A model generated the notes under the pieces. That model saw only the letters and a list, made by a program, of their open reading frames with translations. It was not told where the DNA came from and made no database searches. This document shows, in pieces, positions 4,001 through 30,616 of a DNA stretch of 64,000 bases. Positions within the stretch are counted from its first letter, which is position 1. Each line of letters starts with the position of its first letter. A program made the translations under genes and the position numbers. The stretch comes from a virus. The DNA lies in the IMG/VR virus record IMGVR_UViG_3300030419_007368, positions 1-64,000 of that record; one strand, 5' to 3'.

Positions 4001-4332
4001 AGATCATTCTCCACTTCTAATATGTCAAATATTGTTTTAATTTCTTCTTCTTTTAACGAAAATTTATCTTTATTTTCGCTAGCTAATCTGTGCATCTGCT
4101 TTATCTTTTTGCGCTTATTTTTGCCTTGTATCGCATTCTTTTCCTTACAAGAATCCAAAAAATTCAACACGCGCTCATCGCTCTCGATGTAACCGGTTAA
4201 CATAAAGCGAAAAAACTGTGATTGACTCAAGCCATCGTACTGACACCTTATCCTCAGCTTGGCTTGTCTTTCTGCGGTATCATAAAACATTATTTTCTTT
4301 CTTTCTTCAGTTTTAGAACCTTTGTCGCTCAT
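3997..4332 (-). CDS. ribbon-helix-helix-like regulator candidate
   Basis: 111 residues. Residues ~12-50 show the pattern of a ribbon-helix-helix DNA-binding domain: a short strand (KKIMFYDTAE), a helix (RQAKLRIRCQYDG) and a second helix opened by LSQSQFFRFML. The C-terminal part is Lys/Glu-rich and helical. It is coupled at both ends by 4-base ATGA overlaps (IMPDH/GMPR-like gene upstream, sigma-region-4-like gene downstream), which suggests a small regulatory cassette. The fold assignment is inference from the pattern, and the target is unknown. Confidence 0.75.
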   Translation of the reverse strand: MSDKGSKTEERKKIMFYDTAERQAKLRIRCQYDGLSQSQFFRFMLTGYIESDERVLNFLDSCKEKNAIQGKNKRKKIKQMHRLASENKDKFSLKEEEIKTIFDILEVENDL

Positions 4333-5351
4333 TTATCTCTCCAAAGGATGTGAGTTCCGGATTCGCTTTGGCCCGCTGAAGTCTGAGTCGTGAATTCACA
4401 GTTTAATTGCAGGTCTCTAATGCTAGTGCATCCTGAATAGGATAAGCCACTTCGAATGCCTCCGGCAATATCTCTCAACACTTCAGCGACCGGGCCGCGA
4501 TATGCAACAGTAGAGGACACGCCCTCTGGTGTAGAGGATTTCCCCCTCCAATCCTTTTGTGCGTTGCTCGAAGCCATCCCTCTATAAACCTTATATCTAG
4601 ACCCATCGGCGGAAGTAAACACTTGCCCCGGAGTCTCTTTTGTTCCAGCTAACATCGACCCCAACATCACAAAGTCAGCGCCGGCGGCTAGGGCCTTGAT
4701 TATATCGCCGCTAGTTTTGAAGCCGCCGTCAGCTACAATGGGTATTTCATGAGCAGTTCTTGCGCAATCGATGACGCTCTGCAACGTTGGTACACCATGC
4801 CCACTAACCAGCCGGGTGGAGCAAATAGAGCCACCGCCAATTCCGACACGAACTGAGTCGGCGCCCCATGAAGCAAGATCGTCAAACGCTTCTAGCGTTG
4901 CAACATTTCCCGCCATAAGGTGCACATCACGCCCAAATTTGTTCTTCAAACTGGACAGAGCATCTCTCATCATCACGTGATGGCCATGAGCTACGTCGAT
5001 ACAAAGTATGTTGGCGCCGGAGTCGACAACATTTTGCGCCCTCTCTAAGAAGTCGCCAGTCATACCGATTGCTGCAGCCACATGCTTGACGCCGGAAGTA
5101 TAAACATCAAAAACGATCTTAGCCTGTTCTTCGACAGAGTTATACCTGTGAATAATTCCCAACCCGCCGGCGGAAGACATAGACTTTGCCATGTTAAGCT
5201 CGGTAACCGTGTCCATGGGACTAGATATCACAGGTAGAGTAAGCTCAATGGATTCGGACAAGAACGCACTGGTATCGACATCAGACCTGCTGCGTATTTC
5301 ACTATATTTTGGCACTAGGAGTGTATCATCAAATGACAGCGATTTCTTCAT
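4329..5351 (-). CDS. guaB-like: IMP dehydrogenase / GMP reductase family enzyme
   Basis: A (beta/alpha)8 NAD(P)-dependent purine enzyme of 340 residues. It shows the substrate loop GGGSICSTR with catalytic Cys177, the phosphate site [24 protein letters not shown], the flap YRGMASS and the [12 protein letters not shown] segment. The CBS domain pair of typical IMPDH (about 490 residues) is absent, as in GMP reductase (about 350), so the direction (IMP to XMP, or GMP to IMP) cannot be fixed from sequence. The ATG at 5351 was chosen because AGAGG precedes it and it gives an ATGA overlap with the DUF3310 gene. It would adjust guanine nucleotide pools during infection. Confidence 0.9.
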
Positions 5352-5680
5352 TGTTGACCGCCTCTTAGGTTGTTCAGTCTTCGCTGCAAATACCAAATTG
5401 CCTTCTCGATATCTCTCACTGCAGTGCCTTTGTGCATATGTCGGGATATATACTTGATGGCGTTACCGCAATTAAAGTCCAAATTCCAATCTTCTATAAC
5501 ATCAATGGTTTCATAAGCGCCATGATTGTAGTGCGAAGGGTGATCGACTAGGTTTAGCTTTACGTTCACTAAAGTACTGTTAGTTCCATCTGGATCGCAA
5601 GTCGAACCACCCTTAGGATGGCGATCTCGCATGTCCAGTTGCGCTGTGTTGTCGTGCCTGTTCTTTCTCTTATCTTTCAT
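5348..5680 (-). CDS. DUF3310 family protein
   Basis: 110 residues. The C-terminal ~60 match DUF3310: DHPSHYNHGAYETIDVIEDW, NCGNAIKYISRH and KAIWYLQRR. The domain is found in phage genes of nucleotide metabolism, such as the T7 gp1.7 nucleotide kinase, but alone it has no proven activity. Start ATG 5680 has AAGGAG at the ideal distance; an in-frame extension to 5713 has no such site. It lies between dUTPase (10-base gap) and the IMPDH/GMPR-like gene (ATGA overlap), in line with a nucleotide role. Confidence 0.88.
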   Translation of the reverse strand: MKDKRKNRHDNTAQLDMRDRHPKGGSTCDPDGTNSTLVNVKLNLVDHPSHYNHGAYETIDVIEDWNLDFNCGNAIKYISRHMHKGTAVRDIEKAIWYLQRRLNNLRGGQQ

Positions 5681-9400: not shown

Positions 9401-9866
9401 GCGAATCAGATACAATCTTGAAGATGTTGTTAAGCCCAGTTTGATTCATTGCCAACAGAACAAGGTGGCCGCTGGAGTTGATTATACTCTTCGACTTACC
9501 TTTCGAAGCAGCTTCATCCTCGGTTTCGACCTTATCTGTGTCGTTAATGACTTTCCTAGCTTGCTTCTTATCTTCTTTAATGCGATCGTACTCTCGCTTC
9601 CATTCTTCAACGGAAGGCACGAAGTATGCTTCTACACCAAAGATGGGCTTAAAGTCTTTGCCGGCTTCCTTCATCTTTTTAGCGTGCAATACTTGATAAG
9701 ACATGCCATTCATATTTCCATGGTCAGTCAACGCTAGTGCGCTCATGCCGTTCTCATATGCAAAATCCATATGCTCTTGGGGGTATCCGAACCCGTCAAA
9801 GACCGAGCCGGCCACGCTGTGTGCATGCAAGCCTACGAAAGGAATGCTAGGTGTAGTTCTAGTCAT
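6435..9866 (-). CDS. dnaE: DNA polymerase III alpha subunit (family C, DnaE type)
   Basis: Replicative polymerase, 1143 aa, near the length of bacterial DnaE (about 1160). Order: PHP domain (HAHS near the N-terminus, ALTDHGN), palm with GPGRGSAAG and the two catalytic Asp in PDIDYD, fingers, tandem HhH (IKGLGDKAIEQI), and a C-terminal OB fold (KTKNGKPYWIVKVTDE). No internal 3'-5' exonuclease domain was seen. Start ATG 9866 has GGAG; an upstream extension does not. It stands apart from the replication block at 19-26 kb, where a family-A polymerase-like gene is found. A possible own promoter is at 9895-9922. Confidence 0.95.
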   Translation of the reverse strand: MTRTTPSIPFVGLHAHSVAGSVFDGFGYPQEHMDFAYENGMSALALTDHGNMNGMSYQVLHAKKMKEAGKDFKPIFGVEAYFVPSVEEWKREYDRIKEDKKQARKVINDTDKVETEDEAASKGKSKSIINSSGHLVLLAMNQTGLNNIFKIVSDSHQGDNFYRKPRLDYALLKEYGEGVIASSACLGGVYAKDYWNNREEGEEAVLEAMRTTTRRMIDCLGDRWYGELQWNNVPEQHELNKYVIKMHEEFGIELISTADSHYPSAEAWKDRELYKRLGWLGKSKVPEYMKSELPIDIDEMGMELYPKNGDQMWDSYKKYSEECGVSYNDDIVYDSLVKTHWIANERIEDFMPDDTVRLPGFVVPDGESGEQTLVKESIAGLRKLGLEDNQEYVDRLKNELTVINNRGFSKYFLTMKAVSDKAGDHMLAGPGRGSAAGSLVSYVLGITQVDPIKHGLLFSRFLRSDAKDYPDIDYDVSDAFGLKEILAEEWGETTVVPISNFNTLQLRSLIKDIGKFYDVPYPEVNAVTSRMVKEATPKAKAKHGIRAGVYVPTFEEVMEYSESLHMFLVKYPHIKTHVESLVGQVRSTSRHAGGVVIGEDLDKHMPLICSGGVMQTPWSEGMNVRHLEPLGFIKFDLLGLSTLEMIESAVAHVLRRYYDVENPTFKDIKGYYDKFLHPDKIDLNDSKVYKNIFHKGKFVGVFQFTNAGAQRLARRAKPENIIDISAITSIYRPGPLSAGVDKKYVKAKNNLDDVYYFNDVFEEVTSETAGFLIFQEQIALLAHKLGKDISLDEGNKLRKLLTKKGTGKGAQEKNKIREKFIEGCKEKKIAESTASDLWQTFEYFSGYGFNKSHAVSYSILSFQCAWLLNYYPECWIAAFLDKEPESRKEAAISLAQKSGFKIKALDINTSTAQWEIAEDGKTLIQPLSSIKGLGDKAIEQIINNRPFNNVEELLFNEDIVYSKLNKKALDVLCRSEALKSVIDDRFTGSKHFWMACIQDKPKSTKRLLENIDLYSPEGEFSKEEKIDFVSSLTGIFPFDLVMSKQVRDSIDKHMVPPIGKWDRQLGIAWFVPREVLVKKTKNGKPYWIVKVTDETSATTSIKCWGVKETDTIHINRPYAAKLDFSEEWGFSTRSVRHTFKLLG

Positions 9867-9894
9867 CAATACTTCTCCATGTTTACTACAAAAC

Positions 9895-9922
9895 AATATA
9901 AAAATATGTTATCGAAAGTAAA
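9895..9922 (-). promoter_or_regulatory. candidate sigma70-type promoter ahead of dnaE
   Basis: Minus-strand TTTACT (9917-9922), 16-base spacer, TATATT (9895-9900), ending 28 bases before the dnaE start and just after the stop of the muramidase gene. The -10 is 5/6 and the -35 is 4/6 to consensus. Confidence 0.4.
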
Positions 9923-9929: not shown

Positions 9930-11525
9930 TTAATTATTTAAGATTTCAGACTGTATAGACAATATCAACCTTTTAATTTCTTCCAGATTTCTGCGCTGGG
10001 CTGCGTCTTTATATACCTTTCGCTTGTGGTAGTGAGTATTGCCCTTGACTTTGCCGTAGACGCCGGATCCCATTGCGTCATAATACTTTTTTCCGACCCT
10101 ACTCAAGACCCACTTGTAGGTCTTGTTAACTACTTGCCTGTACTTTTGATAGTTATACTCTTTTCCGTGACAATTAATGGTCGCGGCCGGCCCGACAGGT
10201 GGAGGACCTCCCCACTCATCTACCTTATTTGCTAATTTTATAACGTACCTGGATACGTAATCCGAAAAAACCTCCGGGTCGAGCGCTCGACAGACGTCAT
10301 TACCACCAAGAGTAACAATTCTTATTGATGTGGGATTGTAAGCTGCAATAGTCTCTGCCATACTCTTCTGCTCTTGCAGTTTCTTTTTGTCCTTTTTCGA
10401 CTTGCCCTGTAGGTCGGCCTGCTTTGCCATAAACAAAGTTTCATACCACCATCTTGATGAAGCTCCGTTCCTGTACAGAACTCTAACCGCTCTGTCCGAC
10501 GTCTCAAATTTCTTAATTAAAGTTGCCTCCTGGTAGGCGGTCGACGAGTCTCCAATAAAAAGAATTCTTTCTTTATACTTCTCGAAGCTTTTTGGTACAA
10601 ATACGTACGTATAGGAAAAAGTAACGGCTATTGGAACGCCATTTTTCTTGGCCGGTGCAAACTCAGACCTCCGTAAAGCGTCCATAACGACCTGGACAAA
10701 TTCCTTTGTAACGCGCTTTGAATTGGGGCGGTCTGGGTCAAGCTTGGTGCCTATTACTTTCCCTTCAGCATCGAGGGTCACCAGCACAGACACACCTAGC
10801 CGAGCCTTTACGGTCGGCTCAGGGACCGGGCGAGCGAGCTTTAGTAACTTAGGGTTCTCAATACCGGCTGGGGCGGGGGGATCAGCATGCACCACTCCAT
10901 GATTTGGATAAAGCTGCTTAAACGCCTCTGCCCCCGTTTTTACTTTTGTGGCATAGCTTCTGACAGGTCGACCGTAGTATATGTCAGTAGTCTTAAGATA
11001 ATACTTCATATCTCCAGTTTTCACCGCTTTATTCGCTGGTATCACTAGTCTTTTTCCTACGGCTTTCACAAACCTGGTTAAAAGCTCCATGCTAACACGC
11101 GCCGGGTCGCTTTGATAAGCCTCCCAAGCTTGTTGAGGGTCGGGATAAATCTTCAAAAGATGACGACCCATGACTTGAAAAGTACCCCACGCGGTTGATG
11201 CAATTGCAGCTTTCGGAGCAATTTTAAAAGCCTTTTCGAAATTTCTATATTTTGCCCGGTGATCAGAGTAAGTTTTTTTTCCGGATTGGTGAGGGCCGAT
11301 ATGTAATTTTTGCTTTTTAAGCTCCGGTATTTTATCCTCTTCGCCGAACTCTTTTGCGCGAGCAAGTAAATGATTATTGTTGAATGCTCGGGCGCCTGGA
11401 GAAAACGAGGTTTCAACCAAAGCCATACCGGCTATCCAAGCCGGATGCACTCCTGTATTGCTCGCCGCTTCGATAAGCAAATCATAATTGCTTTTTATCT
11501 TTTTTTTAGCTTTTTCTATATTCAT
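9930..11525 (-). CDS. muramidase / TonB_C-like / SGNH hydrolase fusion
   Basis: 531 residues, three parts. Residues ~1-210 resemble the phage N-acetylmuramidase family DUF3380 (ALVETSFSPGA with candidate acid Glu38; STAWGTFQVMG at 110-120). Residues ~240-310 match a TonB C-terminal-like fold (VLVTLDAEGKVIGT, ALRRSEFAPAKKNG). Residues ~318-530 form an SGNH/GDSL hydrolase: FIGDSS with nucleophile Ser327, a glycine in RNGASS, GGND (407-410), and a late His in GNTHYH. It likely cuts glycan and removes acyl groups from the wall or surface polysaccharide, in the tail or at lysis. There is no signal peptide. The leader is AT-rich with no clear Shine-Dalgarno. Confidence 0.8.
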   Translation of the reverse strand: MNIEKAKKKIKSNYDLLIEAASNTGVHPAWIAGMALVETSFSPGARAFNNNHLLARAKEFGEEDKIPELKKQKLHIGPHQSGKKTYSDHRAKYRNFEKAFKIAPKAAIASTAWGTFQVMGRHLLKIYPDPQQAWEAYQSDPARVSMELLTRFVKAVGKRLVIPANKAVKTGDMKYYLKTTDIYYGRPVRSYATKVKTGAEAFKQLYPNHGVVHADPPAPAGIENPKLLKLARPVPEPTVKARLGVSVLVTLDAEGKVIGTKLDPDRPNSKRVTKEFVQVVMDALRRSEFAPAKKNGVPIAVTFSYTYVFVPKSFEKYKERILFIGDSSTAYQEATLIKKFETSDRAVRVLYRNGASSRWWYETLFMAKQADLQGKSKKDKKKLQEQKSMAETIAAYNPTSIRIVTLGGNDVCRALDPEVFSDYVSRYVIKLANKVDEWGGPPPVGPAATINCHGKEYNYQKYRQVVNKTYKWVLSRVGKKYYDAMGSGVYGKVKGNTHYHKRKVYKDAAQRRNLEEIKRLILSIQSEILNN

Positions 11526-17183: not shown

Positions 17184-19040
17184 TTAAACTATTTCGCAAG
17201 CGCCGCCTGAGCAAGCTAGCTCTCCCGACAGATTCGTGTTGTCCTCTATCTCCACGACTTTCTTGATGTCAAAATCTGTCAGTGAATCAACAAGGACTTG
17301 ATATTTTTCTTTCGAGCAGTCCTCGAATGGCGCTTGCTTGTAGGTGTGGTCTTCAAATGGTAGAACAGACAGCCCATTGTAGCAATCTCTATTTTCCCAC
17401 ATCCAATCACCAACATCAGTCCACTCGGCCGGCCTGATAGAAATAGTAGCAGACACATTGTGGGTGTTCTGACCACGATGGTGGCCCGGGCGGATCCAGT
17501 TCTCTGTAACGCTCTTTACTCTCTTTAGAAGCTGGAGCGCGGACTCCTGGCGCGTGATAGCTCCCTCTGGGGCACACTGCGGCACTGAGATGACCGCAGT
17601 ATCGTGCGGTCTGAAGTACTCATCTTCAATCAGCTCAGGGTTGTTGACAAGCAAGTGTGTGTAAATTGCCTCGTTCTTTCCGACTCTCATCCTACGGACA
17701 TAGTAATCGTTATGCCAAGCGTGTATACCACTTGATGTACCTAAAGCTAGTGACGTCGTGCCGGCGGGCTTTACGCAGGTGGTTCGAGCGGCTGGCTTAA
17801 TACCTATTAGATCTGCGACGCGGCGATTCTCCTGTCTGACGGCCGTAGCCGCGGCCTTCATGTCTAAATCTAAAACCTTCCCAGATGCGATACCAGTCAT
17901 TGAAACGCCGATGAGGGCATCTTTTTCTGTCGTTCGTCGCCAGACTTCACGCAAATAATGAAAATCAGTATAACCAGCCTGCAAGGTAGCAATTAATGTT
18001 GCGGCGCGGACCCTGGATTCGTACTCTTCCTGTGACTCAAGATCAGAAGCGTTAACCTCCACCAAATTACAAAACTGGTAAGGGCGTAGAGCAATTTCGC
18101 AACAAGGATTTGTACCCCAGTCTTTATCATTGGTAAAATAGAAGCCGGGCTCTCCAGATCCAGAAGCTCGCACTCTCTCCCACAGGTTATCAAAAAATTC
18201 TTTAGTAATCCGGTGACGCATCAGGGCTATCGAGTTGTTTGCTCTACCTCTTTGGGGGTGCTTCTCCCACCAGTTTCCTGCCTTAGCTGCGAGAAGCTCT
18301 TCATCATCTGCTGAAAACAATGATATGAGAGCAGCGCGACGGATGCCCCCGGCAAGCACAGCATCAGCAATATGACAAACAATGTCGTGTACTTCGATTG
18401 TCTCAAGTTTATCTCCACTCTCCTTTTCCTCTAAAATGCCCTGAATTTTTACTAGACATTCTTTAAGAGGTTGCGGGCCAGGTGCGCGGCCCCCAGAAGT
18501 AACTAGCTTGGCGCCCTTCGCACGGATGTCACTAAAATCAAAACGTATTCTGGAGCCACCTTTAAAGTATGAGCCCATGAGGACTTTTATAGAGTCCGCC
18601 CACCCTTCAATAGAATCAGAAATTAGATATCTTCTAGTTCTTTTGGAGCTTGGCTTTTGGATTTCAGGTAATTTTTCAACGTGATGCTTTTGTACAGAAA
18701 ATCCAACACCAGTTCCCCCAAGTAGGAGAAACATTGTCTCACTAAAAGCCAAAGCATGATCAATAGGAAGGTAGGCACAATTGTAAATCCTGTTAGGAGC
18801 CACTTCAATCGGCTTTCCTCCGAACTGTAGTGACCGCATCGACGGAAGTACTTTCTTCTTGTATACATACTTATAGGCCCCCTCTATTTCTTCTTTGAGA
18901 TCTGGATATTTTTTAATATGCATCCTCTTATTACGAGTAACTATCTCCCGCCAGCTTTCCCGCCTTTCTTTTTTCGGAAGGTAACGGGCATATTTCATGT
19001 AAATTGTGATATCTGATAAAATCTCACTCGTTGGTTGCAT
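17184..19040 (-). CDS. nrdJ: adenosylcobalamin-dependent (class II) ribonucleotide reductase
   Basis: Reduces ribonucleotides to deoxyribonucleotides with a B12 cofactor and no oxygen requirement. 618 residues, shorter than the 739-residue Lactobacillus monomeric enzyme. Its catalytic set is complete by alignment spacing: thiyl-type Cys313 and Glu315 in NPCCEI, the redox pair Cys88 (IYNCAY) and Cys324 (QFCNLVEV), and the C-terminal shuttle CxxxxC (Cys610, Cys615) in ACSGGACEIV. LLLGGTGVGFSVQ and VRASGSGEPGFYF are typical of the family. It overlaps the helicase gene by 17 bases. It needs cobalamin from the host or environment. Confidence 0.95.
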   Translation of the reverse strand: MQPTSEILSDITIYMKYARYLPKKERRESWREIVTRNKRMHIKKYPDLKEEIEGAYKYVYKKKVLPSMRSLQFGGKPIEVAPNRIYNCAYLPIDHALAFSETMFLLLGGTGVGFSVQKHHVEKLPEIQKPSSKRTRRYLISDSIEGWADSIKVLMGSYFKGGSRIRFDFSDIRAKGAKLVTSGGRAPGPQPLKECLVKIQGILEEKESGDKLETIEVHDIVCHIADAVLAGGIRRAALISLFSADDEELLAAKAGNWWEKHPQRGRANNSIALMRHRITKEFFDNLWERVRASGSGEPGFYFTNDKDWGTNPCCEIALRPYQFCNLVEVNASDLESQEEYESRVRAATLIATLQAGYTDFHYLREVWRRTTEKDALIGVSMTGIASGKVLDLDMKAAATAVRQENRRVADLIGIKPAARTTCVKPAGTTSLALGTSSGIHAWHNDYYVRRMRVGKNEAIYTHLLVNNPELIEDEYFRPHDTAVISVPQCAPEGAITRQESALQLLKRVKSVTENWIRPGHHRGQNTHNVSATISIRPAEWTDVGDWMWENRDCYNGLSVLPFEDHTYKQAPFEDCSKEKYQVLVDSLTDFDIKKVVEIEDNTNLSGELACSGGACEIV

Positions 19041-20418
19041 TTTTATTCCTCTCTTCTGATGATCTTTTGTGTTTTCTAAATAATTTGTACTTGTCTTTCA
19101 GGGCATCCGCTAGTTGACCTGGGTTCATGTTTGGTGTAACCACCGGGGTTTCAACCTGAGCCAAGACCTTAAGCTGAACACTCGTAGTGTCCATAAACAT
19201 TGGAAAAACCAAGCCATCAGGTCCATTTCTATTTTTAGCCACAAAGAGCCTAGCCGTGTTAGCATTTTTATCTTTGATCGTTCGAGAGATAGAGCAAACA
19301 AAATCAGCAACGAAGCATTTGTTAAATGCTTCAGATATCGACTCCATTGTTACCACCTCTGCGTTCAAACCAGTCCTATTTGTCTGCGAAGCCGTCCAAA
19401 CTGGACACTGAAACTCCTGTGCGAGGCCTCGCAGGTTTTCATAAATAGACTCCAATTCGTTTCTTTTCTCTTTGAAATGTGTGGCGGGACGTAGCAAATC
19501 AGCGTAATCCACTATAATCATATCGATTTTTTTATTTCTTTTTTTTAATTTTTCTAGATGACTCCTCAATGTATTGGGAGATGCTGTCTTTGTTGGGTAC
19601 TCCTTAACGATCAATGAGCCTTCGAGATCGCTGATCGCTTCTAAAACATCGTCCTTGCGATTAAAGAGCATACTTAGAGGCACCTCGCTGATGCAACTAT
19701 CATATCTTTGGCCTGTCACCGACTCCGACAATTCCAGCGTATAGTGCACAACATTCTTCCCAGACTTGATAGCCGCTGAGCCTAGGTGAGCAAGCGCCAT
19801 GGATTTTCCGGCGCCGGTCGGAGCAACAACTACACCCAGCTCACCTTTCCCCAGGCCCTTTCTCATCAGGCTATCAATCTTTGGCCAGCCTGTCGTTACA
19901 GGATTCCTGGCCTTAATCTGATAACGCATCTCAAAATCTTTAAAAAAATCATGACCAAAATCATTATCCGTTCCAAGCTCTAGAGCGTTGTTGATAACCT
20001 TCCTAACCTCATCATATGATGAGTTTTGGATTAGATCCACAGATTGCATCAAAGCTTCTTTTAATTTTTGCTTCTTGCAGAAGTCTAAAGATGTGTCCTT
20101 AATATATGCAGCATCAGTGACTTGCTTGATGCAGGCCCGGGCAAAATAATCCCTTACTTGTTTTTTTGCTGAATCGTTATGATTATCCAACTCCGTTCTC
20201 AAAATCGAGGCAAGGATCTTATCGGTAGGATGCACTCCATATTTTTGTCGATAATCGTATATTTTTGATATGAAAACACGTAAATACTTCAATTCAAAAA
20301 AGCTAATATCTAACACCTCCTCAATCTGATCCGCAAACGGACGGTCTTCCAAGATTAATTGTGCTAGCGACTCTTGAAACTGCTTCCCATATTTAGAAAA
20401 GCTGGTATCTTCCTTCAT
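19024..20418 (-). CDS. dnaB: DnaB-like replicative helicase
   Basis: Hexameric RecA-fold helicase that unwinds the fork. 464 residues from ATG 20418 (GGAG upstream; a TTG four codons earlier lacks a site). A helical N-terminal domain precedes NPVTTGWPKIDSLMRKGL, Walker A APTGAGKS (199-206), Walker B IIVDYADLL, CPVWTASQTNR (motif H3), and an arginine-finger-type stretch VAKNRNGPDG. It resembles T4 gp41/DnaB. No primase gene is seen in this window. It is the last gene before nrdJ. Confidence 0.93.
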   Translation of the reverse strand: MKEDTSFSKYGKQFQESLAQLILEDRPFADQIEEVLDISFFELKYLRVFISKIYDYRQKYGVHPTDKILASILRTELDNHNDSAKKQVRDYFARACIKQVTDAAYIKDTSLDFCKKQKLKEALMQSVDLIQNSSYDEVRKVINNALELGTDNDFGHDFFKDFEMRYQIKARNPVTTGWPKIDSLMRKGLGKGELGVVVAPTGAGKSMALAHLGSAAIKSGKNVVHYTLELSESVTGQRYDSCISEVPLSMLFNRKDDVLEAISDLEGSLIVKEYPTKTASPNTLRSHLEKLKKRNKKIDMIIVDYADLLRPATHFKEKRNELESIYENLRGLAQEFQCPVWTASQTNRTGLNAEVVTMESISEAFNKCFVADFVCSISRTIKDKNANTARLFVAKNRNGPDGLVFPMFMDTTSVQLKVLAQVETPVVTPNMNPGQLADALKDKYKLFRKHKRSSEERNKNATNE

Positions 20419-20459
20419 GTTGTTCTCCAAATTCTTTCTAATACTTTAAGTACGCGTGA

Positions 20460-21428
20460 TTAATTGTCCACGCAAATTTTATTGAAATGTTGGAATAACT
20501 CAATAAAGTTTATTTCTCCAAAACCGTCCTTTATCATCATTTTTATGAGACCGGTTTTATTAAAAGAGAAGTCCGGGTTTTCCAAAGTTTCTTTAATATT
20601 TTTTTTCGCAGCGATGTTTAGGATAGGAGCATACAGCTGCATCATGTGATAGTTTCTCCTCAAGACGTCTTCTTTTTCTAACACTGTTTGGTAAACCTTG
20701 ACATTTGTTTCTGACGACATCTTCTTGCAGTATTCCAAAATAGAATCGAATGTTGCGGATTCGGTCTCTCTAAGAAAAGGGAAGCGTCGGGCAGCTGTTT
20801 TAAGACCTACACCACCGACACCATCAATATTGTCTGATTTGTCACCAACCAGGGCCCGTGCAATGGCAAAATTTGCAGGATGTATGTCAAACTTCTCAAG
20901 GATTAATTTTTCATTCAAGACTTCTTTTTGGATTGGTCGATACAACACTGTCTTACCTGACAGTAGTTGAAAGAAGTCTTTGTCACTAGACAAAATTAAC
21001 TTCTCATGATCCTCCAAGCTCTTTAGCTGGGAAATATAGGCGATGACATCGTCCGCCTCAATTCCATCAAACATAAACTGGACCACAGGCGTGTGATTGA
21101 AATATTCTATCAACCTTGACTGCTGCCAGATCTTGTTTTCAACTTCCTCTGTGTTGGAAAGATTTCTCACGGCCCGGTTTAGTCTAATAGGTTTTCTGCC
21201 GGCCTTGTAATCCTTCTTGAGGAGTTTCCTCTTCTTCGAACCCCCAGGACCATCCCAGCAGACCACTATCAAGTCTGGCTTTGACTCCCTGACAATTTTT
21301 TGCAAACTTTGCAAACATCCTTTAAGTGCGCCAATTGGTGCACCGTCAACAGACAGACTAGGATTGACAATGTAGTTTCGAAAAAAGAGATTTAATTGAT
21401 CAATAATTAAAATTCTTTTCTTATGCAA
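20460..21428 (-). CDS. 5'-3' exonuclease / flap endonuclease (PIN-FEN fold)
   Basis: Removes RNA primers and flaps. 322 residues with metal-binding acids in LIIDQLNLFFR, VCWDGPGG, GIEADDVIAY, LSSDKDFFQL and GDKSDNI, followed by a helix-hairpin-helix (GVGGVGLKTAARRF). It matches the T4 RNase H and T5 exonuclease group. The start codon is TTG at 21428, with AGGA seven bases upstream. It lies 42 bases before the helicase gene. With a family-A-like polymerase lacking its own nuclease nearby, it could supply that activity. Confidence 0.92.
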   Translation of the reverse strand: MHKKRILIIDQLNLFFRNYIVNPSLSVDGAPIGALKGCLQSLQKIVRESKPDLIVVCWDGPGGSKKRKLLKKDYKAGRKPIRLNRAVRNLSNTEEVENKIWQQSRLIEYFNHTPVVQFMFDGIEADDVIAYISQLKSLEDHEKLILSSDKDFFQLLSGKTVLYRPIQKEVLNEKLILEKFDIHPANFAIARALVGDKSDNIDGVGGVGLKTAARRFPFLRETESATFDSILEYCKKMSSETNVKVYQTVLEKEDVLRRNYHMMQLYAPILNIAAKKNIKETLENPDFSFNKTGLIKMMIKDGFGEINFIELFQHFNKICVDN

Positions 21429-22304: not shown

Positions 22305-23441
22305 CTACTCTTCTGAGTCGATGTCGTAAAAGTCCTCGGCTTTGCCTTCCTTCTTATCAAATCGCATTATAATCTCTTCGTCCATTATCTGCAAGACCCG
22401 GGTGCGAAATTTCTCATTCTGAAGCTTTTCCATCCACCTGGATGCTTGAAACTTCTCAGACGTCCCATCTTCGAACTCTAAGTTGTACCAAGCGCCAGAC
22501 TGGTTTAAAGATCTTGAACTTTTTATAGCTTCGAACCAACTCTCTTCATCTTGAATGCCGACAGCAGAGCCCCAAAGAATTTTAAAAGTGCACTGTCGAC
22601 CCTCAGTACCAAAACGACTCTTCTTAAGAGTTACCTTGACTTCTGAGCCTACTCGAAAGCCGTTTTCGTCAAGTATATATGCTGCTTTTGCCTTTCTCTT
22701 GGTTAGCCAAATACGCAAAGAATAAGCGTAATGCATTGCTTTGCCACCCGGGGTGACATAAGGCGTGGTCATTGCCTCCGCGACGTTGTTGGTTATGTTA
22801 GTTTTAAGCTGGTTCAGTACCAAAAAAGCAGACTGCGAATTCGCAATTGGAACAGTCAACTTTGACATGCCTTTCGCAAGAATTCTTGCCTTCACTGCCA
22901 TAGACGATTGAGGATTGAAGTCCCCCTCGACGTCACTGATAGCCGGAGTCAAAGCGAGGCTGTCCCAAATAAACAACATTCTGTTGTCGTTTGAACCAAG
23001 TAGCTCCTCTAGCGTCTCTAAAACGAACTCGACACTCTCAGCTTGAACATACATAAACGAGCCGACGCCCGGAGGAGGTTCTTCGTCAAGGACACAGCCG
23101 GCCAACTTTAAAAAGGTCGGATCAATGGCTGACTCAGAATCAAAATATACAACATCTATATTCTTCTGTTGTGCATTCGCTGCAATCTGAGCAGCCATGT
23201 ATGACTTGCCTGATCCCTCTAAGCCTGCAATCTCTGTGATTTTTCCCATGGGGACACCGGCAAGGGAGCCGCGACATATCATGCTGTCCAGCCAACGTGA
23301 GCCAGTTGAGACCCACTCCTTTACTTCCGTAGGGTTGTCGCCAGATAGACTATGTGCAAGATTTGTTCCCGCCTTCTTGTTGATAAGATTGCGCATTTCC
23401 TTTAGATTTAATCTGCCTAATTTCTTAGCTTTTTTTGCCAT
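22305..23441 (-). CDS. uvsX: UvsX/RecA-like recombinase
   Basis: Strand-exchange ATPase for recombination-dependent replication and repair. 378 residues. Walker A GLEGSGKS (73-80), YFDSESAID, Walker B MLFIWDSLAL, AFLVLNQLKTNI, and a loop TTPYVTPGGKAM typical of L2/DNA-binding regions. It is closer in layout to T4 UvsX and cyanophage homologues than to bacterial RecA. The C-terminal tail is acidic (KAEDFYDIDSEE). It lies directly downstream of ssb, with an attenuator-like hairpin between. Confidence 0.93.
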   Translation of the reverse strand: MAKKAKKLGRLNLKEMRNLINKKAGTNLAHSLSGDNPTEVKEWVSTGSRWLDSMICRGSLAGVPMGKITEIAGLEGSGKSYMAAQIAANAQQKNIDVVYFDSESAIDPTFLKLAGCVLDEEPPPGVGSFMYVQAESVEFVLETLEELLGSNDNRMLFIWDSLALTPAISDVEGDFNPQSSMAVKARILAKGMSKLTVPIANSQSAFLVLNQLKTNITNNVAEAMTTPYVTPGGKAMHYAYSLRIWLTKRKAKAAYILDENGFRVGSEVKVTLKKSRFGTEGRQCTFKILWGSAVGIQDEESWFEAIKSSRSLNQSGAWYNLEFEDGTSEKFQASRWMEKLQNEKFRTRVLQIMDEEIIMRFDKKEGKAEDFYDIDSEE

Positions 23442-23512: not shown

Positions 23513-24259
23513 CTAGGAAGCGAGAAGCTCCTCAAAAGCTTTATCAACTGCGCTAACAGGCGCGTCATTCTCGTAACGAGAGCTTTCTGATGAGACTTCT
23601 TCAGCGTCGGACTCGTCTAGAAGAAACTCGTCCAGCATCGCTTGGACCTCCTCCGCAGTCTTTCGCTCAAAAACAGAATCAAACTCCGGAATAGTTTCCA
23701 GGAGCTTGCTAATCTCCTCATCTGTCTCTGCCAACCTTGATGGTCGGCGCCTAGGCGTGATGGTTGTCTGTGGGAACTGTGCTCCCGCAGGTTTTCCATA
23801 GTTGATAACCAAGTCAGTCCCCTCTGTCACATCAGTGATGTCACCGTATTCAGGATTCAGAACTAAGTTCAGCAACTCCTTGTAAGCCATCTTTCCAAAG
23901 CCCCATAATCGCACTCCCTCGCTCTCTTCTCCGCGGACCAAGACCGGGGAAAAGAAGCGCTGGCGAGCAGACAGGCTCTTGGCCATCTTAACGCTTTCAT
24001 CGCTACCGTCCTTGTACAGGTTACGGATAAAATCATCAAGAGGGTCAGCTTCTCCGAAGTTCTTCTTAGGGCTCAAGAATCCAGGATTCTTGCCTAAGTT
24101 GTAGTGAAACCAGAACTCCTTAAAGGGGTCTCCATCGGAAGGAGGAAGAATTCTGATTACTGTTTCTCCATCTTCCGGGCGCCAAAAGGCACTTTTTCCG
24201 TTGCCGCGATTCTCCAAGGCGTCGCGCTTCGCCTTCATTTTTGCAAAATCAATTCCCAT
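23513..24259 (-). CDS. ssb: single-stranded DNA-binding protein (gp32-like)
   Basis: 248 residues. The N-terminal segment GETVIRILPPSDGDPFKEFW and the FHYNLGK stretch match the gp32-type SSB core of T4-like phages. The C-terminal ~60 residues are strongly acidic (LLDESDAEEV...), as expected of the tail that recruits partners. It coats ssDNA at forks and recombination sites. Well-formed AAGGAGA site. Its own promoter and a leader hairpin are proposed upstream; a hairpin follows. Confidence 0.9.
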   Translation of the reverse strand: MGIDFAKMKAKRDALENRGNGKSAFWRPEDGETVIRILPPSDGDPFKEFWFHYNLGKNPGFLSPKKNFGEADPLDDFIRNLYKDGSDESVKMAKSLSARQRFFSPVLVRGEESEGVRLWGFGKMAYKELLNLVLNPEYGDITDVTEGTDLVINYGKPAGAQFPQTTITPRRRPSRLAETDEEISKLLETIPEFDSVFERKTAEEVQAMLDEFLLDESDAEEVSSESSRYENDAPVSAVDKAFEELLAS

Positions 24260-24323: not shown

Positions 24324-24351
24324 AGAATAAGAACGACAAATCAAAAGTTAA
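24324..24351 (-). promoter_or_regulatory. weak candidate promoter ahead of ssb
   Basis: TTAACT (24346-24351), 16-base spacer, TATTCT (24324-24329); both boxes match 4/6 of the sigma70 consensus. It overlaps the stop of the tubulin-like gene. Confidence 0.3.
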
Positions 24352-25184
24352 GAAATTATTTCTTCTTCTTGAATTAAAGTCGCGTATTCTACACAGTAAG
24401 CGTAGTTATGGTCATAATTTGTCTGGTATATAGCAAAGCCAGAATCGACCTTCTCTTCTTTGTTCTCTTCCGTAAAGCTTCTTATTTTAGTCAATAGTCC
24501 GCTTCCTTCTTTCAGAGTTTCTTCGTTTACTCCAAAAAAGTATCTTCTTGTTCTAGGCTTGTTCAGCGAGTAAAATCTTCTTTGGTTAAAATTATCAAAG
24601 CTCATAACACCGAACGTCCCGATCTTCGAGGTTGCCGGTATAGGAGACAGGTTCGTCAAAATAGGTTCCGTGTTTTCGAACACAGAAAGCATGTGATATG
24701 TACTTGATATTACGTTGTTGATGTCTTTCCAATAACTAGCTATGGAAACGTTCTCTATTACTGATTCAACCATCTTATTGTCCACCACGTACAAGCGCTT
24801 AAGCAGTCCGGATCTGGCATATTGTTGCAAAACTCCAAAAGTTATCCTATCGCGGAGACGAGCTGCTTCGCCCAGGTCGCCCGGGTTAGGTTTAACATAC
24901 AAGACGGTAATCTCACTTGCTTTGATCTGCTCTAAAATTCTTAAGGCGGCGCCGCTGATGTTTCCTGCGCCGGACAATACCAGTGTGGTTGGGCCCTTGC
25001 ATTTCGATAAATTTAGTTTCTTGTAGTTCTTTTCGTAGTCTTCGTGAGTGTCTTGTTTCGCAATTTTTAAAAATCTAGAGTAATTATTATCTTCGCAATC
25101 AATATAAAAAACATTATATTGAGGGTATTTTTCAAACTCTCGGGCGACGGAACACCCTGGTCTTCCCAATCCAACTATATTCAC
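24348..25184 (-). CDS. divergent FtsZ/tubulin-like protein
   Basis: 278 residues. The order of motifs follows the tubulin/FtsZ GTPase core: IVGLGRPGCSVAREF (T1 loop, residues 3-17), a strand VFYIDCEDNN (T2-like), TTLVLSGAGNISGAA (66-80, at the place of the GGGTGSG T4 loop but altered), VLYVKPNPGDLGEAARLRD (T5/T6 region; compare FtsZ TKPFxFEG), LYVVDN, and SYWKDINNVISS (149-160, T7-loop-like). The phosphate-binding glycines are reduced, so GTP hydrolysis is uncertain. A filament positioning phage DNA, as with PhuZ or TubZ, is inference. ATGA-coupled to the polymerase-like gene. Confidence 0.55.
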   Translation of the reverse strand: MNIVGLGRPGCSVAREFEKYPQYNVFYIDCEDNNYSRFLKIAKQDTHEDYEKNYKKLNLSKCKGPTTLVLSGAGNISGAALRILEQIKASEITVLYVKPNPGDLGEAARLRDRITFGVLQQYARSGLLKRLYVVDNKMVESVIENVSIASYWKDINNVISSTYHMLSVFENTEPILTNLSPIPATSKIGTFGVMSFDNFNQRRFYSLNKPRTRRYFFGVNEETLKEGSGLLTKIRSFTEENKEEKVDSGFAIYQTNYDHNYAYCVEYATLIQEEEIIS

Positions 25185-26359
25185 AGAATTTTCCTCATAT
25201 CGCCGAAACTCTTGCCGGCGCTTAAATTAGATTTAAAGTTGCCAAATTTAGTATCTGAAAAAACAGCCATAATTTCCTCTAACATGTGCTTGTCCTCCTT
25301 GCACAAATCAATGACCAGGCTATCATGGATGCAAAAAGAAATGAATGATTTCCTGTTACGCAACATCTTATCAATTTTTGTCGCAGACGTTAAGAACAAA
25401 TCGCTCGCAGTGCTCTGTACGAGGTAGTTTACAGCTTTTTCTTCTGGTGCCTCTATCTTTCTCCCAAAAGGAGTATAAATTCGGTCCCCATCATAGTATT
25501 TTTTAAGTACGTCTTCGCGGCGGAGATGTGAGTTTAGTTTCTTATTCTGGGCTTTTGGATTATACAACCAAGAGAAGACTCTCTTTTTAACTTCTTCCCT
25601 GTCGTACTTGCTGTTGAACACGTTTTCTCCAATCCACGTGTGAATATCACTTTCTGGCTGCTCCTCGCCCAAAAGGCCGAGTAGAGTGCGCAATTCAGAC
25701 GAATTATAATCTAATTCCACAAACATATCGTTATTGGGTACTAAAACGTTTCGCAATTCTCGGTTTAGCGTCAGTATTGGAAAGCTACCAGGGGACGTCG
25801 TAAGGCGGCCTGTGAGTGTGCCCCACGGATTATATTCTATATATGGATTAGAATGTTTTATTTTCCTAAAAGTATTTCGGACCGAGGGATTTATAAAATC
25901 TAAATTATCAGACCTTATGTGTAGTTTTCTATTTTTTATACCACTCAACATACCGTAAACTTCAACAATAAAATCATGATTTTCCGGCTTTTTGAAATGG
26001 TTGAACACCCACTCGCATATATCGTTTTTGATTCCAAAGTATTCTAAAAGAAACTTTCTTGGAACAAGGTCATAAAAACATACGTCATTCAAGTCCACCT
26101 TAGCTTCCTTGAAAGACTGCAGAAAAGCAGCTCCACGAGAAGAAGCTTCAAGCCAGCGACCACTAAGCTCATCTGGGCACACGTCTTGCAAACTGGATCC
26201 ATTAGCCCAAATTTTTGCGTACTCGATATCAAGCCCCCGAAGGTGAATGCTCGGAGCCCAAGTATGAGTCAGTTGCAGGGAGTTTGGATAGTGATATAGA
26301 TCACCATCGCAAAACAATGCATAGCACTCTTTTTTAGAATCTAAAGCTTGAAAAAGCAC
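25181..26359 (-). CDS. family-A DNA polymerase-like protein (polymerase core only)
   Basis: 392 residues from GTG 26359 (GAGG nine bases upstream; a GTG at 26386 would overlap the previous gene). Motifs of PolA palm and fingers: GTLTGRLTTSPG, motif A VELDYNSSELR with Asp217, motif B-like EVKKRVFSWLYNP, NYLVQSTASDL, and motif C CIHDSL with Asp346. Both catalytic Asp are kept, but the HDE triad reads HDS and the usual NFG..YG of the O-helix is changed. No 3'-5' exonuclease or 5'-nuclease domain. It may be a repair or lagging-strand polymerase, or a structural relic. Confidence 0.8.
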   Translation of the reverse strand: MLFQALDSKKECYALFCDGDLYHYPNSLQLTHTWAPSIHLRGLDIEYAKIWANGSSLQDVCPDELSGRWLEASSRGAAFLQSFKEAKVDLNDVCFYDLVPRKFLLEYFGIKNDICEWVFNHFKKPENHDFIVEVYGMLSGIKNRKLHIRSDNLDFINPSVRNTFRKIKHSNPYIEYNPWGTLTGRLTTSPGSFPILTLNRELRNVLVPNNDMFVELDYNSSELRTLLGLLGEEQPESDIHTWIGENVFNSKYDREEVKKRVFSWLYNPKAQNKKLNSHLRREDVLKKYYDGDRIYTPFGRKIEAPEEKAVNYLVQSTASDLFLTSATKIDKMLRNRKSFISFCIHDSLVIDLCKEDKHMLEEIMAVFSDTKFGNFKSNLSAGKSFGDMRKIL

Positions 26360-26366
26360 GAATACC

Positions 26367-27749
26367 TCACGAGGGGCCAAGAACACCAGTTAAGGCAAGG
26401 TCGACTCTAGACGGATTAAGAGAATTTTCTTTTGCTTCGCGCAATCTTTTCTCGTAATTAACGTTAGTCTCGCCATGCCAATATTTTCCTTTCGTAATAA
26501 ACTTAGTAGCGTGGATACCCCTAGTCAAGTTATTAATGTATTCTAGTGAAGATTCTGATCCATAAATTCGATAATTCCTGATTGTACGTTTCACAAAAAA
26601 TTGAAAATCGTGCACATCGTGCATAAAACCTGTCTCAATAAATCGCAACTTCAACAACATTTTCAGCCAAAACTCATCTGATGGGAACTCATTGGTAAAA
26701 CTTATATTATCTGTCTCGGGGTCGCGGGAGAGAGGGGGAGGCTCGCGGTCTTTTCTCTCAAAAATCATCCTACCCAGCACTTGGTCATTAATAGAAAAAT
26801 GAGGTTTCACAATCGCACTTCCTTTTTCGCAAACAACGTATTTGGTCTCTTGGAAAGTGTTGAATTGTAAATAAAATGCTTCATACATCGATGCTAGTTG
26901 TTTTTTTAAATTCGTCAACTCAGTTTCATATGCCCTTTCATAGTAGAATTTAAAAATGTTTTCGTAAGAAACTCCGTACTCGCTCATATATTTTTGTGCG
27001 GCGACGGGGCCATCGTCCCCTGAGTTCGCGGCGCCGGAAGCAATGTTGAAAACCAATCTCCACGGAGCGTTTTTATCAACCATGAAGCCGAATTTTTGTG
27101 CGGCCTTCACAAAAAATGTAAAATTTGCATCTTGAACATAATTTAAAATAGCAGCGTTGTTACTTGTGCCGTGTGGAACATTCGCTATTTCTATCATCAG
27201 CCCGCTAACAAACGGAGAACAGTGAGCAGACAAAATATATCCTGTCCTTGTTATCGGGAAGTTCCTGGCTATCTGGATTGCATAAAGTAAAAATTCTTTA
27301 ACAAAATCAGTAAAGTTTTTTATTTTCTCTTGGCGGCGGTCGATGCGTAAATATTCTTGTACAAAATTAGTGTATATTTTGTTTATATGGTTGTTGTATT
27401 TAAACTTTAAATCTCCTTGAGATCGCCAGGCTTTTTTTGCTACGATATTAGAATATGGACTATTCCTGTCTATAGAGTCGCTGTTAGCCATTTTCTGCAC
27501 ATACCTTCTCAAATCATCGAAAGCATCAGAAACGAAATCAACAGCGAACTCTGTGGCACTGGACATCCCGGTAAAGATTTGTTCTAAATTAGCTTCGTCG
27601 GTATAAACAGCATCGCCATTTTTGTCTATCCTGCCATAGAACAAATGCTTTCTCTCAAGATCGAACGCCGGAGTGTTGACAAACTGAGGGTAGAAATCAT
27701 TGACATTGTTTTTGGAATTGAAAATCGCTTCAGTTAGTTGTCTTGGCAT
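26367..27749 (-). CDS. unknown, probable virion protein
   Basis: 460 residues without recognised domains. It contains aromatic-rich mixed structure (TRTGYILSAHCSPFVSGLMIEI, APWRLVFNIASG) and no signal peptide or membrane segment. It follows the 949-residue structural protein by 17 bases and precedes replication genes, so it marks the boundary between virion and replication modules. A virion role is inferred from position. Confidence 0.8.
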   Translation of the reverse strand: MPRQLTEAIFNSKNNVNDFYPQFVNTPAFDLERKHLFYGRIDKNGDAVYTDEANLEQIFTGMSSATEFAVDFVSDAFDDLRRYVQKMANSDSIDRNSPYSNIVAKKAWRSQGDLKFKYNNHINKIYTNFVQEYLRIDRRQEKIKNFTDFVKEFLLYAIQIARNFPITRTGYILSAHCSPFVSGLMIEIANVPHGTSNNAAILNYVQDANFTFFVKAAQKFGFMVDKNAPWRLVFNIASGAANSGDDGPVAAQKYMSEYGVSYENIFKFYYERAYETELTNLKKQLASMYEAFYLQFNTFQETKYVVCEKGSAIVKPHFSINDQVLGRMIFERKDREPPPLSRDPETDNISFTNEFPSDEFWLKMLLKLRFIETGFMHDVHDFQFFVKRTIRNYRIYGSESSLEYINNLTRGIHATKFITKGKYWHGETNVNYEKRLREAKENSLNPSRVDLALTGVLGPS

Positions 27750-27766: not shown

Positions 27767-30616
27767 CTATCTAGCCGCCTGCGCCGTTTGTTTGCCGTTG
27801 ATTTCTGTTTTATATCCGCCATCTCTAGAAATAGTCATCGTTGTTTTTAAAACGATGTGATATCCGCCCAGATTCATTTGATATGCTAAAGATGATGGAC
27901 TCTCCACTCTACCAAGGCCGGCCAGACTAGGGTTGACATAATAATACATACCAGGTGTAAACAAAGAGGTGCCTATTAAGTTTAAATCAGTGTTATACGG
28001 AAACTTCAACTGCTCTAGCTGGTCGACGCCTTGTTCAGCCGCTTGCTCTGCTCGAAGTTCAGCGAGATGCGGAATTTGCACACGAGAAAACTTCATAGAT
28101 TTTAATAAGCCTTTGTCTGAACCAATATTAAAATGATATATTCCGTCTGCTAGATCTTCAACAACATCTGCCTTTCTTTTCGTCACGTCCTTCGCACTGG
28201 TTACATACACTAGCCAATAATCATATGACGTTTTAACCATCGTTTCGGATGACATCGGCTGACTTACCTTATCATAATAATCAAACTTATAATCAGCACT
28301 AGTAACGTCCACTACTCTCTTCATCGGTAGAAGCTCGGCTATTTTTCCCGCATCACGTCCGCAGACCTTGAAGTCTGATCCGGGGAGTTGTTTTCCTGGC
28401 AGACTCAGAGCAATCGCGCTTGACCTCGCTTTAGGTGGCTTAAGGGACTTAGGGAAGCCAACACCAAGGGAAGGTATAACTAGATCGTTCACTAGTGATA
28501 AAACAAAAGAGCCAAGAGGCATTTGAGTCCTCCTTCTTCGAACGATCTTGTTCAAGAACCACGCTCGAAAAAGATTAAACGAAACTGGAAACTGTGCCAA
28601 ATTTATTTTCTGTATTTTCCCGTTTCGATCATAATACTCTATCGGGCCAAGAAGCATCCTCACATTAGTCAGGGGATAATCTATACCCGTATCTGGGCCC
28701 TTTAAGTATGTCCCCACAGGGAAGATTGTTTTAGGCGAAGACTCCTGGTTCGTCGTTGGATCAAAAATAGGCTCATCGCCAAAATCGAGCATCTTCATAC
28801 CCGCATTTCGGCTTGCTAATTCAATAATATCTCCCAAAAACAGAAAATAAAATGGATACGCCTCTTTGTCGTAATTTAATATAGATTTCTTTGCTTTGTC
28901 CTGCTTCTTCTTTGTGGACTCTTTATCTTTTGACTCTGCTTCACCGTCAAGAGACGACACAAGTTGTTGTGCTGTCTCTTCTTTCAAATCTAGCTTGTCT
29001 TTGTCAAGTATATTGCACCTTCCAACGTCTATTTCTGACTTTGCCTTGCCTATTGCCAGCGAAGTTGACTTTATGACTTCCTCATCCGACAATGCGTCTA
29101 AATTTTGTTCCTCGACTCCTTTGTGCTTCGCTACATCTTTCGCAAGAACAACGCCCATGGATTTTTCTACATATTTTTTCGAAGCGCGCGTGCAAAAAAG
29201 ACGCGTTCCGTAACCGCCCTGTTTTGGTGGATTGCCGTCAATCAGTGCGTTTATAAAGGTCCCATACAGATCTTTTTTAAATCGGTTGACTGTCTTCTTT
29301 AGGAACGCTAGGACTGCAGTGGCGTTTTTCTCCACCTTAAACCATTTGTAAACTTCCTCACCATCACCCTTAATTTTAGTTTGATTCTTTTTTGTGACCG
29401 TTCCAGGGCCTCCTGCTTTTTTATAAACATCTGCGAAAAAAGCATCTTTTTCAATTAATTCTCGCAAAGTTTTTCGAGCAGGGCAGTTGGCGTCACTGGT
29501 GCAAGTCTCTTTCGCAAGTCCCGCTTGAATTCCTTTTATCGATGCGGCTAATTTATATATGTGTGCCGTGTTGGTCTTCATAGTAGAAACGCCGCTAGTT
29601 ACATCTAAGTTGCCACCTTTCTGAATTCGAAATGAATCCTGAAAGACATTGACCTGGTTGCTGCCTATAGTGGTCTCAATAGCCCCCCTGTACTTTGCTT
29701 TTAAAATAACCTGCCCATTCTCTTTAATATCAAAATCATAACTTATTAAAGCCAGCGACAATATTGTATTCATTTTTTCGATATTGGAAATGGCTGTGAT
29801 GTCTTCTTGACTTAAATTAACTCCGTTTAGGGACGCAATATCGGGAGCAGTATAGCCCATCAAAACTTTTATCTGATAATGCTTGGGGTTCCAAGCATCA
29901 GAGCCTTTAACAAATTTTGCTGGTGGCCACAATATCATGTCAACATATCTGAGGCCTCCTGAGCTTGGAGATGGCTCTCCGGGAGGTTGTGCGTTTAGAT
30001 CTTTTAAACTCTTGAAAGACAGCTCCAAGGTACATTCAATGTTGTTCTCTATCACACCGTGAGTTTCTCCGTTTTGATGTACGGAAAAAGATTTTAAACC
30101 AACATTTCGAAAAGTAGGTTTCGTACTCTCGTACGCAAGATAATCTTCTACGCTGGATGCTAGCTCATACCCAAAATTATCTGAAAATTTAAACTCTCTA
30201 TAACAAGGCACAGGCAAGGCGGTTAAGGTCGAGCCGTCAGGTGTGCCGTCAGGGCCCATCTTCAACTCCTCATAATTAACTTTATAAATCCTTATTTTCG
30301 GTTGCATTAAAGACAAGACAGATTGCTTAATCTTGTAAAAAACATCGAGGGCAGGAATCCCCTTCAGTTTATTAACAAGTTCTGGTCCGGGGCCGTTCAC
30401 CTGCCTAAACATACTATATTGAAAAAATTTTGGATTGGCTTTGGTGAAACGCTTAATAGCATCGATATTCTGACTTAGAACATATTGTTCTATGTTAGAT
30501 ACGTTCTTGTCATTGTTGGTGACCGCCTTTTTGTCTCTAAGGTTCTTGGAATCCTCTGCAGACGCGGTTTTGACGCTACCCTTGCCTTTTGGCGATGTAA
30601 TATCTGGCGTTGCCAT
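27767..30616 (-). CDS. large probable baseplate/tail structural protein
   Basis: 949 residues, not matched to a named family. The N-terminus is polar and low complexity (Lys/Asp/Ser). Residues ~120-260 look like a beta-rich domain (PCYREFKFSDNFGYELAS, NIECTLELSFKSL). A Lys-rich linker with EESTKK-like runs is present in the middle, and the C-terminus (TMTISRDGGYKTEI) is again beta-like. It lies next to a LysM/gp53-like and a gp48/gp54-like baseplate protein, suggesting a baseplate component. GAGGGG ribosome site. Confidence 0.85.
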   Translation of the reverse strand: MATPDITSPKGKGSVKTASAEDSKNLRDKKAVTNNDKNVSNIEQYVLSQNIDAIKRFTKANPKFFQYSMFRQVNGPGPELVNKLKGIPALDVFYKIKQSVLSLMQPKIRIYKVNYEELKMGPDGTPDGSTLTALPVPCYREFKFSDNFGYELASSVEDYLAYESTKPTFRNVGLKSFSVHQNGETHGVIENNIECTLELSFKSLKDLNAQPPGEPSPSSGGLRYVDMILWPPAKFVKGSDAWNPKHYQIKVLMGYTAPDIASLNGVNLSQEDITAISNIEKMNTILSLALISYDFDIKENGQVILKAKYRGAIETTIGSNQVNVFQDSFRIQKGGNLDVTSGVSTMKTNTAHIYKLAASIKGIQAGLAKETCTSDANCPARKTLRELIEKDAFFADVYKKAGGPGTVTKKNQTKIKGDGEEVYKWFKVEKNATAVLAFLKKTVNRFKKDLYGTFINALIDGNPPKQGGYGTRLFCTRASKKYVEKSMGVVLAKDVAKHKGVEEQNLDALSDEEVIKSTSLAIGKAKSEIDVGRCNILDKDKLDLKEETAQQLVSSLDGEAESKDKESTKKKQDKAKKSILNYDKEAYPFYFLFLGDIIELASRNAGMKMLDFGDEPIFDPTTNQESSPKTIFPVGTYLKGPDTGIDYPLTNVRMLLGPIEYYDRNGKIQKINLAQFPVSFNLFRAWFLNKIVRRRRTQMPLGSFVLSLVNDLVIPSLGVGFPKSLKPPKARSSAIALSLPGKQLPGSDFKVCGRDAGKIAELLPMKRVVDVTSADYKFDYYDKVSQPMSSETMVKTSYDYWLVYVTSAKDVTKRKADVVEDLADGIYHFNIGSDKGLLKSMKFSRVQIPHLAELRAEQAAEQGVDQLEQLKFPYNTDLNLIGTSLFTPGMYYYVNPSLAGLGRVESPSSLAYQMNLGGYHIVLKTTMTISRDGGYKTEINGKQTAQAAR

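Follow-up and report, generated by a model that had tools for sequence, protein, structure and literature searches.

A 278-amino-acid protein, here called TUB, is encoded on the minus strand at positions 24348..25184 of the window (the whole 64,000-nucleotide stretch of viral DNA that was analyzed). On the evidence of structure prediction, a family of relatives, and gene order, TUB is most likely a tubulin/FtsZ superfamily protein, divergent and reduced, and its gene belongs to the core set of large contractile-tailed phages of a widespread group, in which it is fixed between a divPolA1-type polymerase gene and an SSB gene; we put the probability of this joint identification at about 0.95. The open reading frame starts with GTG and matches exactly the 278-residue frame of the original prediction, which gave no strand.

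Predicted fold and sequence relationships

AlphaFold2 modeled TUB with a pLDDT of 87.5 and a pTM of 0.87 from an input of 9 sequences and with a pLDDT of 90.5 and a pTM of 0.89 from an input of 27 sequences. As both models were built for the same query protein and their inputs overlap, they are not independent tests of the fold. In Foldseek comparisons with the PDB, the best 50 matches of each model were all FtsZ or TubZ (probability, 1.00), with best E values of 2.9e-12 and 4.9e-13 for the two models and, among the best 50 listed, TM-scores of ~0.6 to 0.7 and sequence identities of 9 to 13%. These matches extended along the entire protein, C-terminal domain included. Among viral structure models, the only good matches were four tubulin/FtsZ-like proteins. 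Structure prediction had been chosen beforehand as the test that could refute an FtsZ/tubulin-like identity; as the best 50 PDB matches were all FtsZ or TubZ, it yielded neither another fold nor another Rossmann family.

The models contain the two-domain tubulin/FtsZ fold, with an N-terminal GTPase domain, a central helix H7, and a C-terminal activation domain. Under our own assignment of element names, the N-terminal part comprises S1/H1 (residues 2 to 19), S2 (24 to 29), S4 (66 to 70), H4 (75 to 86), S5 (92 to 98), H5 (106 to 124), S6 (130 to 135), H6, and H7 (151 to 170), in the same order as in FtsZ. The C-terminal domain is modeled as strands at residues 188 to 194, 212 to 220, 247 to 255, and 261 to 268 and a helix at residues 230 to 240.

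Searches with phmmer and hmmsearch returned no meaningful match of TUB in Pfam, PHROGs, NCBIfam, or PDB sequences. PF00091 matched none of 11 TUB records at an E value of ≤1, compared with 13 of 14 control genomes, and TIGR00065 was matched by a single member out of 27 (E, 0.011). Weak matches to Pfam TrkA_N were obtained for eight of nine members (best E, 0.0009); that of the TUB encoded in the window covers residues 3 to 36 and lies under the curated cutoff. Such weak TrkA_N matches, together with the lack of a significant FtsZ sequence match, could indicate some other Rossmann-like nucleotide binder (e.g., one with a TrkA_N-like GxGxxG motif) that AlphaFold2 misfolded into a tubulin look-alike. 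We regard this as very improbable, in view of the best 50 fold matches being FtsZ or TubZ across the whole length, C-terminal domain included, and of the gapless alignment of the guanine-contact residues of T6 and H7.

A tubulin/FtsZ relationship is further suggested by profile comparison. Aligned to eight FtsZs with hhalign, the TUB family was collinear over 159 columns (P, 0.0094), spanning FtsZ residues 17 to 197, whereas six unrelated families of the same operon, used as controls, gave P values of 0.16 to 0.56. Homology of TUB to FtsZ would be unprovable by sequence alone; the predicted fold and the alignment register jointly make a strong case for it.

Predicted nucleotide-binding site

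Judged by alignment of 150 members, conservation in TUB centers on the putative nucleotide site. The T1 loop GLGRPGC (residues 5 to 11; 25152..25172, minus; family consensus, GLGxAGC) has G5, G7, and G10 in 149, 150, and 149 of the 150 members, respectively, and D29 is kept in 145. The T4 loop SGAGNISG occupies residues 71 to 78 (24951..24974, minus), the family form being GxGx[IV][ST]G. It was correctly recognized at the outset as a replacement for GGGTGSG; the canonical GGGTG[ST]G occurs in 0 of the 150 members. A family-specific HEDYE motif at residues 47 to 51 (25032..25046, minus), delineated from alignments, conservation, and model secondary structure, falls in the T3/H3 region of the model.

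In the hhalign register, Asn136 of T6 (24777..24779, minus; present in 148/150) corresponds to the guanine-contacting N165 of E. coli FtsZ, and W152 and N156 at the start of H7 (24717..24731, minus) correspond to F182 and N186, all without gaps. Position 152 is aromatic (Y/W/F) in 132 and N156 is present in 148 of the 150 members. The underlying segments, VVDN (T6) and YWKDINN (H7), lie where they had been placed originally. T1, T4, and T6 occur in the order then claimed for the loops and, with H7, are collinear with FtsZ, but the claim for T7 is only roughly right.

At 13 pocket-equivalent positions, mean conservation was above that of every random set (0 of 200,000 permutations). The test has some circularity, as conserved glycines were what identified T1 and T4, and its more specific part concerns T6 and H7. 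Overall, these features suggest that TUB binds a guanine nucleotide.

T7 loop and reduced bottom face

The T7-like loop ENTEP (residues 170 to 174; 24663..24677, minus), which follows H7, is less conserved. Position 173, E in this protein and the T7 position closest to that of the catalytic acid, is acidic in 101 of 150 members (67%) and Lys in 26, with a conservation rank of 180 among the 278 positions. The FtsZ T7 motif NxDxxD is absent, the second acid being missing, and the loop is ~6 residues shorter than that of FtsZ when the count starts at the Asn of H7. In neither model is there a helix at the H8 or H9 position. The chain ends after S10, with a median of 6 and a maximum of 13 residues following Q272 in the family, and H11 and a C-terminal tail are therefore absent. 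The original description of the protein as reduced is thus apt, given a median length of 280 amino acids, models without H8, H9, and H11, and a median of 6 residues past Q272. In beta-tubulin, a Lys occupies the position equivalent to 173, and the GTP of the alpha-subunit is left unhydrolyzed. T7, the base of H8, and S9 fill the same interface space in protofilaments of phiKZ TubZ, tubulin, and FtsZ (PMC3678025); with so short a T7, the bottom face of TUB must differ.

The two longitudinal faces of TUB are thus unequal, one looking intact and the other reduced, and its closest fold is that of bacterial FtsZ rather than tubulin. Both features would suit an antagonist of host division, in which an FtsZ mimic would dock on host FtsZ by its intact nucleotide face, with the reduced bottom face capping the filament and so blocking division during infection. 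Such a function seems improbable to us. TUB is locked inside the replication operon at every locus, in contrast to host-takeover genes, which are usually located at variable early-gene sites. Moreover, sequence similarity between TUB and FtsZ is very low, and at ~11% identity in structural alignments, copolymerization with the FtsZ of diverse hosts is unlikely.

Replication operon and the small polymerase

TUB is a real gene, as its relatives and low dN/dS demonstrate: in two diverged pairs (~81% DNA identity), dN/dS was ~0.08 (dN, 0.09; dS, 1.1 to 1.3), and the gene is under purifying selection. It is preceded by POL (25181..26386, minus), a 401-amino-acid family A DNA polymerase (PF00476, E of 6.4e-15; phrog_17), in agreement with the polymerase-like neighbor noted originally. 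The coupling of the two genes was also foreseen, but the 4-base overlap, in which the GTG of TUB shares bases with the TGA of POL, reads GTGA and not ATGA; among relatives, ATGA was found in 36 and GTGA in 2. A Shine-Dalgarno-like GAGGA (25192..25196, minus) lies within the 3' end of POL, 7 nucleotides before the GTG. The next gene downstream encodes, as predicted, an SSB of the gp32-like type (23513..24259, minus; phrog_1192, E of 1.6e-26; PF08804). It is followed by genes for a UvsX/RecA-like recombinase (22305..23441, minus; phrog_97, E of 1.2e-54), a 5'-3' exonuclease (20460..21428, minus; phrog_107), and a DnaB-like replicative helicase (19024..20430, minus; phrog_19, E of 5.4e-77).

This arrangement is fixed across the family. 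The nearest tested gene upstream of TUB was POL in all 178 loci with room for it (97/97 in the first set), and the nearest downstream was SSB in all 193 (103/103 in the first set), counts that come mostly from loci retrieved with TUB as the query. When POL served as the query, TUB was present in 12 of the 12 loci that extended far enough. Over a longer span, the genes run BIG949-UP460-POL-TUB-SSB-UvsX-(dCMP deaminase)-O116-exonuclease-helicase. With respect to gene order, the proposed tie of TUB to replication is therefore borne out at all loci open to checking. UP460 and BIG949 (26367-27749 and 27767-30616, both minus) are conserved ahead of POL at almost every locus and had no significant database matches; UP460 evolves very fast (median identity, 23%), and both are probably structural proteins.

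POL corresponds to divPolA1, a small PolA without an active exonuclease that accompanies a regular polymerase (PMC11348598). It likewise is a small PolA without exonuclease, its family A catalytic residues are invariant in 92 of 92 sequences, and its profile matches the divPolA1 of an immuto phage. A DnaE-type DNA polymerase III alpha of 1,153 amino acids with PHP, pol3 alpha, finger, and HHH domains is encoded at 6435-9896 (minus; PF07733, E of 1.8e-51), and this type of polymerase is present in 9 of 11 long records. The phage thus carries two DNA polymerases, and POL need not be the main replicase. The window also contains a dehydrogenase gene (4329-5396, minus; phrog_9582, E of 1.4e-99), possibly an auxiliary metabolic gene, and a gene for an endolysin-like protein (9930-11525, minus) that has an N-acetylmuramidase domain and, in the C-terminal half, weakly matches a GDSL lipase.

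A subset of loci have one or more additional ORFs inserted beside TUB. Between POL and TUB, the insert may be an ORF of ~100 amino acids (consensus, KLVRDKIPEII...EEAAD; loci L041, L049, L051, L055, L056, L058, L060, L075, L078, L081, L082, L085, L086, L088, L089, L090, L092, L095, L098, L100, and L104), which we take to resemble a MazG-type NTP pyrophosphatase; for the one such insert tested, no Pfam match was found at an E value of ≤0.01.

These neighborhoods would also fit a nonpolymerizing accessory role, in which the tubulin fold would have been kept as a GTP/GDP switch, one able to bind the small PolA, SSB, or both and to sense nucleotide state. The adjacency to POL is invariable and frequently includes the 4-base overlap, a MazG-like pyrophosphatase gene intervenes in some loci, T7 is unconserved, and H8, H9, H11, and the tail are missing. 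Furthermore, pairwise identities of TUB track those of POL most closely (r, 0.77). However, adjacency is no proof of contact, rate correlations with other operon genes are also high (0.59 to 0.71), and, to our knowledge, the characterized members of the tubulin superfamily polymerize. We consider such a role possible but doubtful. TUB would then stand outside the cytoskeleton, as a nonfilamentous or partner-activated GTP switch and a standing part of the small-PolA replication complex, within a large group of tubulin relatives in environmental viruses, a prospect we also entertain with reserve.

Family size and distribution

Peptide-pattern scans of IMG/VR recovered 13 relatives with a single TUB protein as the seed and 40 loci with an alignment of 9 members. 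Among the 600 stretches listed for each of two further scans, at least 595 contained relatives when a 27-member alignment was the seed and at least 570 when distant members were used. Length is nearly constant (275 to 290 amino acids, with a median of 280, in 104 members), and each of 11 long records contained exactly one copy. The IMG sample numbers may point to a marine origin. No relatives were detected by tblastn with six family members among ~50,000 phage records. A match in Bacillus phage Goe7 (E, 0.3) was discarded, as it was to a 175-amino-acid ORF in an unrelated region. Phage relatives of E. coli FtsZ were mostly host-like FtsZs in assembled records, outside the TUB family.

Only one match was obtained in ~85,000 cellular genomes, in the WOR-3 MAG CP070664.1. 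This candidate for a cellular TUB was rejected as contamination, being a phage fragment bounded by N-runs within bacterial genes. The phage replication block between the assembly gaps (locus L113, 5505-10864) probably represents contamination of the deposited MAG chromosome. A description of the TUB family was not found in the open-license literature searched.

The published divPolA1 neighborhood resembles that of TUB, with an exonuclease-less PolA followed by SSB, UvsX, 5'-3' exonuclease, and helicase and a regular polymerase elsewhere in the genome, but a tubulin is not mentioned in the text of that paper (PMC11348598). TUB was not found in the divPolA1 loci of Flavobacterium immuto phages, Microcystis phage Mel-JY01, or the 484-kb LR756508. 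As the block occurs without it, one branch either acquired TUB or retained it in a lineage-specific manner, and divPolA1 does not generally need it. In these divPolA1-type phages without TUB, another family of 129 to 152 amino acids lies between POL and SSB (L135, 7785-8174; L137, 1346-1801), possibly as a functional replacement. A split tubulin in immuto was considered and dismissed, since its 152- and 172-amino-acid genes are not tubulin by inspection.

Possible role in phage replication

The role that we tentatively favor, at somewhat less than even odds, is that of a GTP-dependent oligomeric or filamentous scaffold that organizes replicating phage DNA. A guanine nucleotide would be bound via T1, T4, T6, and H7, and TUB would self-associate head to tail, with the GTP-containing top face of one subunit against the bottom face of the next, to form short oligomers or filaments. 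Such assemblies could keep the phage replication complex together or in place, its polymerase and SSB being products of this gene block as well. Given the frequent loss of the T7 acid, turnover of the nucleotide is probably slow or partner driven, and TUB may be a GTP-switched scaffold more than a fast treadmilling motor. In favor of this reading we count the predicted fold, the conserved pocket residues, the collinear FtsZ alignment, the gene order, the single copy, the close tracking of POL by TUB identities, purifying selection, and the AlpC precedent described below; GTP binding, self-association, location, and the link to replication are what we infer.

Several observations weigh against this scaffold. 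H8 is nonhelical in the models and T7 is short, both being canonical parts of the protofilament interface (PMC3678025). The T7 acid is present in only 67% of members, the H11 and tail of TubZ and PhuZ filaments are absent, and no TubR-like gene was found to be conserved beside TUB. In addition, homology was not detected by sequence profiles, and the gene order derives mostly from TUB-seeded loci.

In the literature found, the phage tubulins described are for the most part the PhuZ proteins of nucleus-forming jumbo phages and the TubZ proteins of plasmid-like phages, and both types position DNA. The TUB family is seemingly large in environmental phages, has been missed by curated profiles, and has one fixed neighbor on each side. 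It keeps the nucleotide site and loses much of what makes tubulins dynamic polymers, and through it one can ask directly whether a replication complex can put the tubulin fold to new use. These findings suggest that isolates may underrepresent phage replication assisted by a cytoskeleton.

Comparison with known cytoskeletal systems

FtsZ provides the best fold match over the whole of TUB, and the guanine-contact residues of T1, T6, and H7 are in register. TUB differs from it in its 9 to 13% identity, its noncanonical T4, the absence of NxDxxD, of the H8 and H9 helices in the models, and of a C-terminal linker and tail, its length of 278 amino acids, and its place in a phage replication operon.

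With the PhuZ/TubZ proteins of phiKZ-like jumbo phages, TUB shares a phage-encoded tubulin/FtsZ fold, and the T4 of phiKZ PhuZ (GGASGSTIG) is also noncanonical. However, sequence similarity to phiKZ PhuZ is limited to the T1 region (27 hhalign columns; P, 0.12), and the PhuZ chain includes H11 and an acidic tail, which becomes ordered on the filament (PMC3678025). PhuZ positions phage DNA (PMC4244570). The phages also belong to different groups, T4-type replication genes accompanying TUB, and no PhuZ relatives were found in IMG/VR by peptide patterns. TubZ of Bacillus plasmids and phage c-st (TubZRC) has the same fold, with 4ei7 and 4ei8 among the best 50 matches listed, but TUB is shorter and lies in a lytic-type replication block, not a partition locus. 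A conserved TubR-like gene was not found beside TUB, the only conserved small neighbor being the MazG-like ORF in a subset of loci. TUB is neither PhuZ nor TubZ.

AlpC of prophage CGP3 differs from TUB in its actin fold, its prophage setting, and its adaptor AlpA. Nevertheless, this actin-like protein is required for efficient phage replication (PMC4446434) and provides a precedent for a phage cytoskeletal protein that serves replication.
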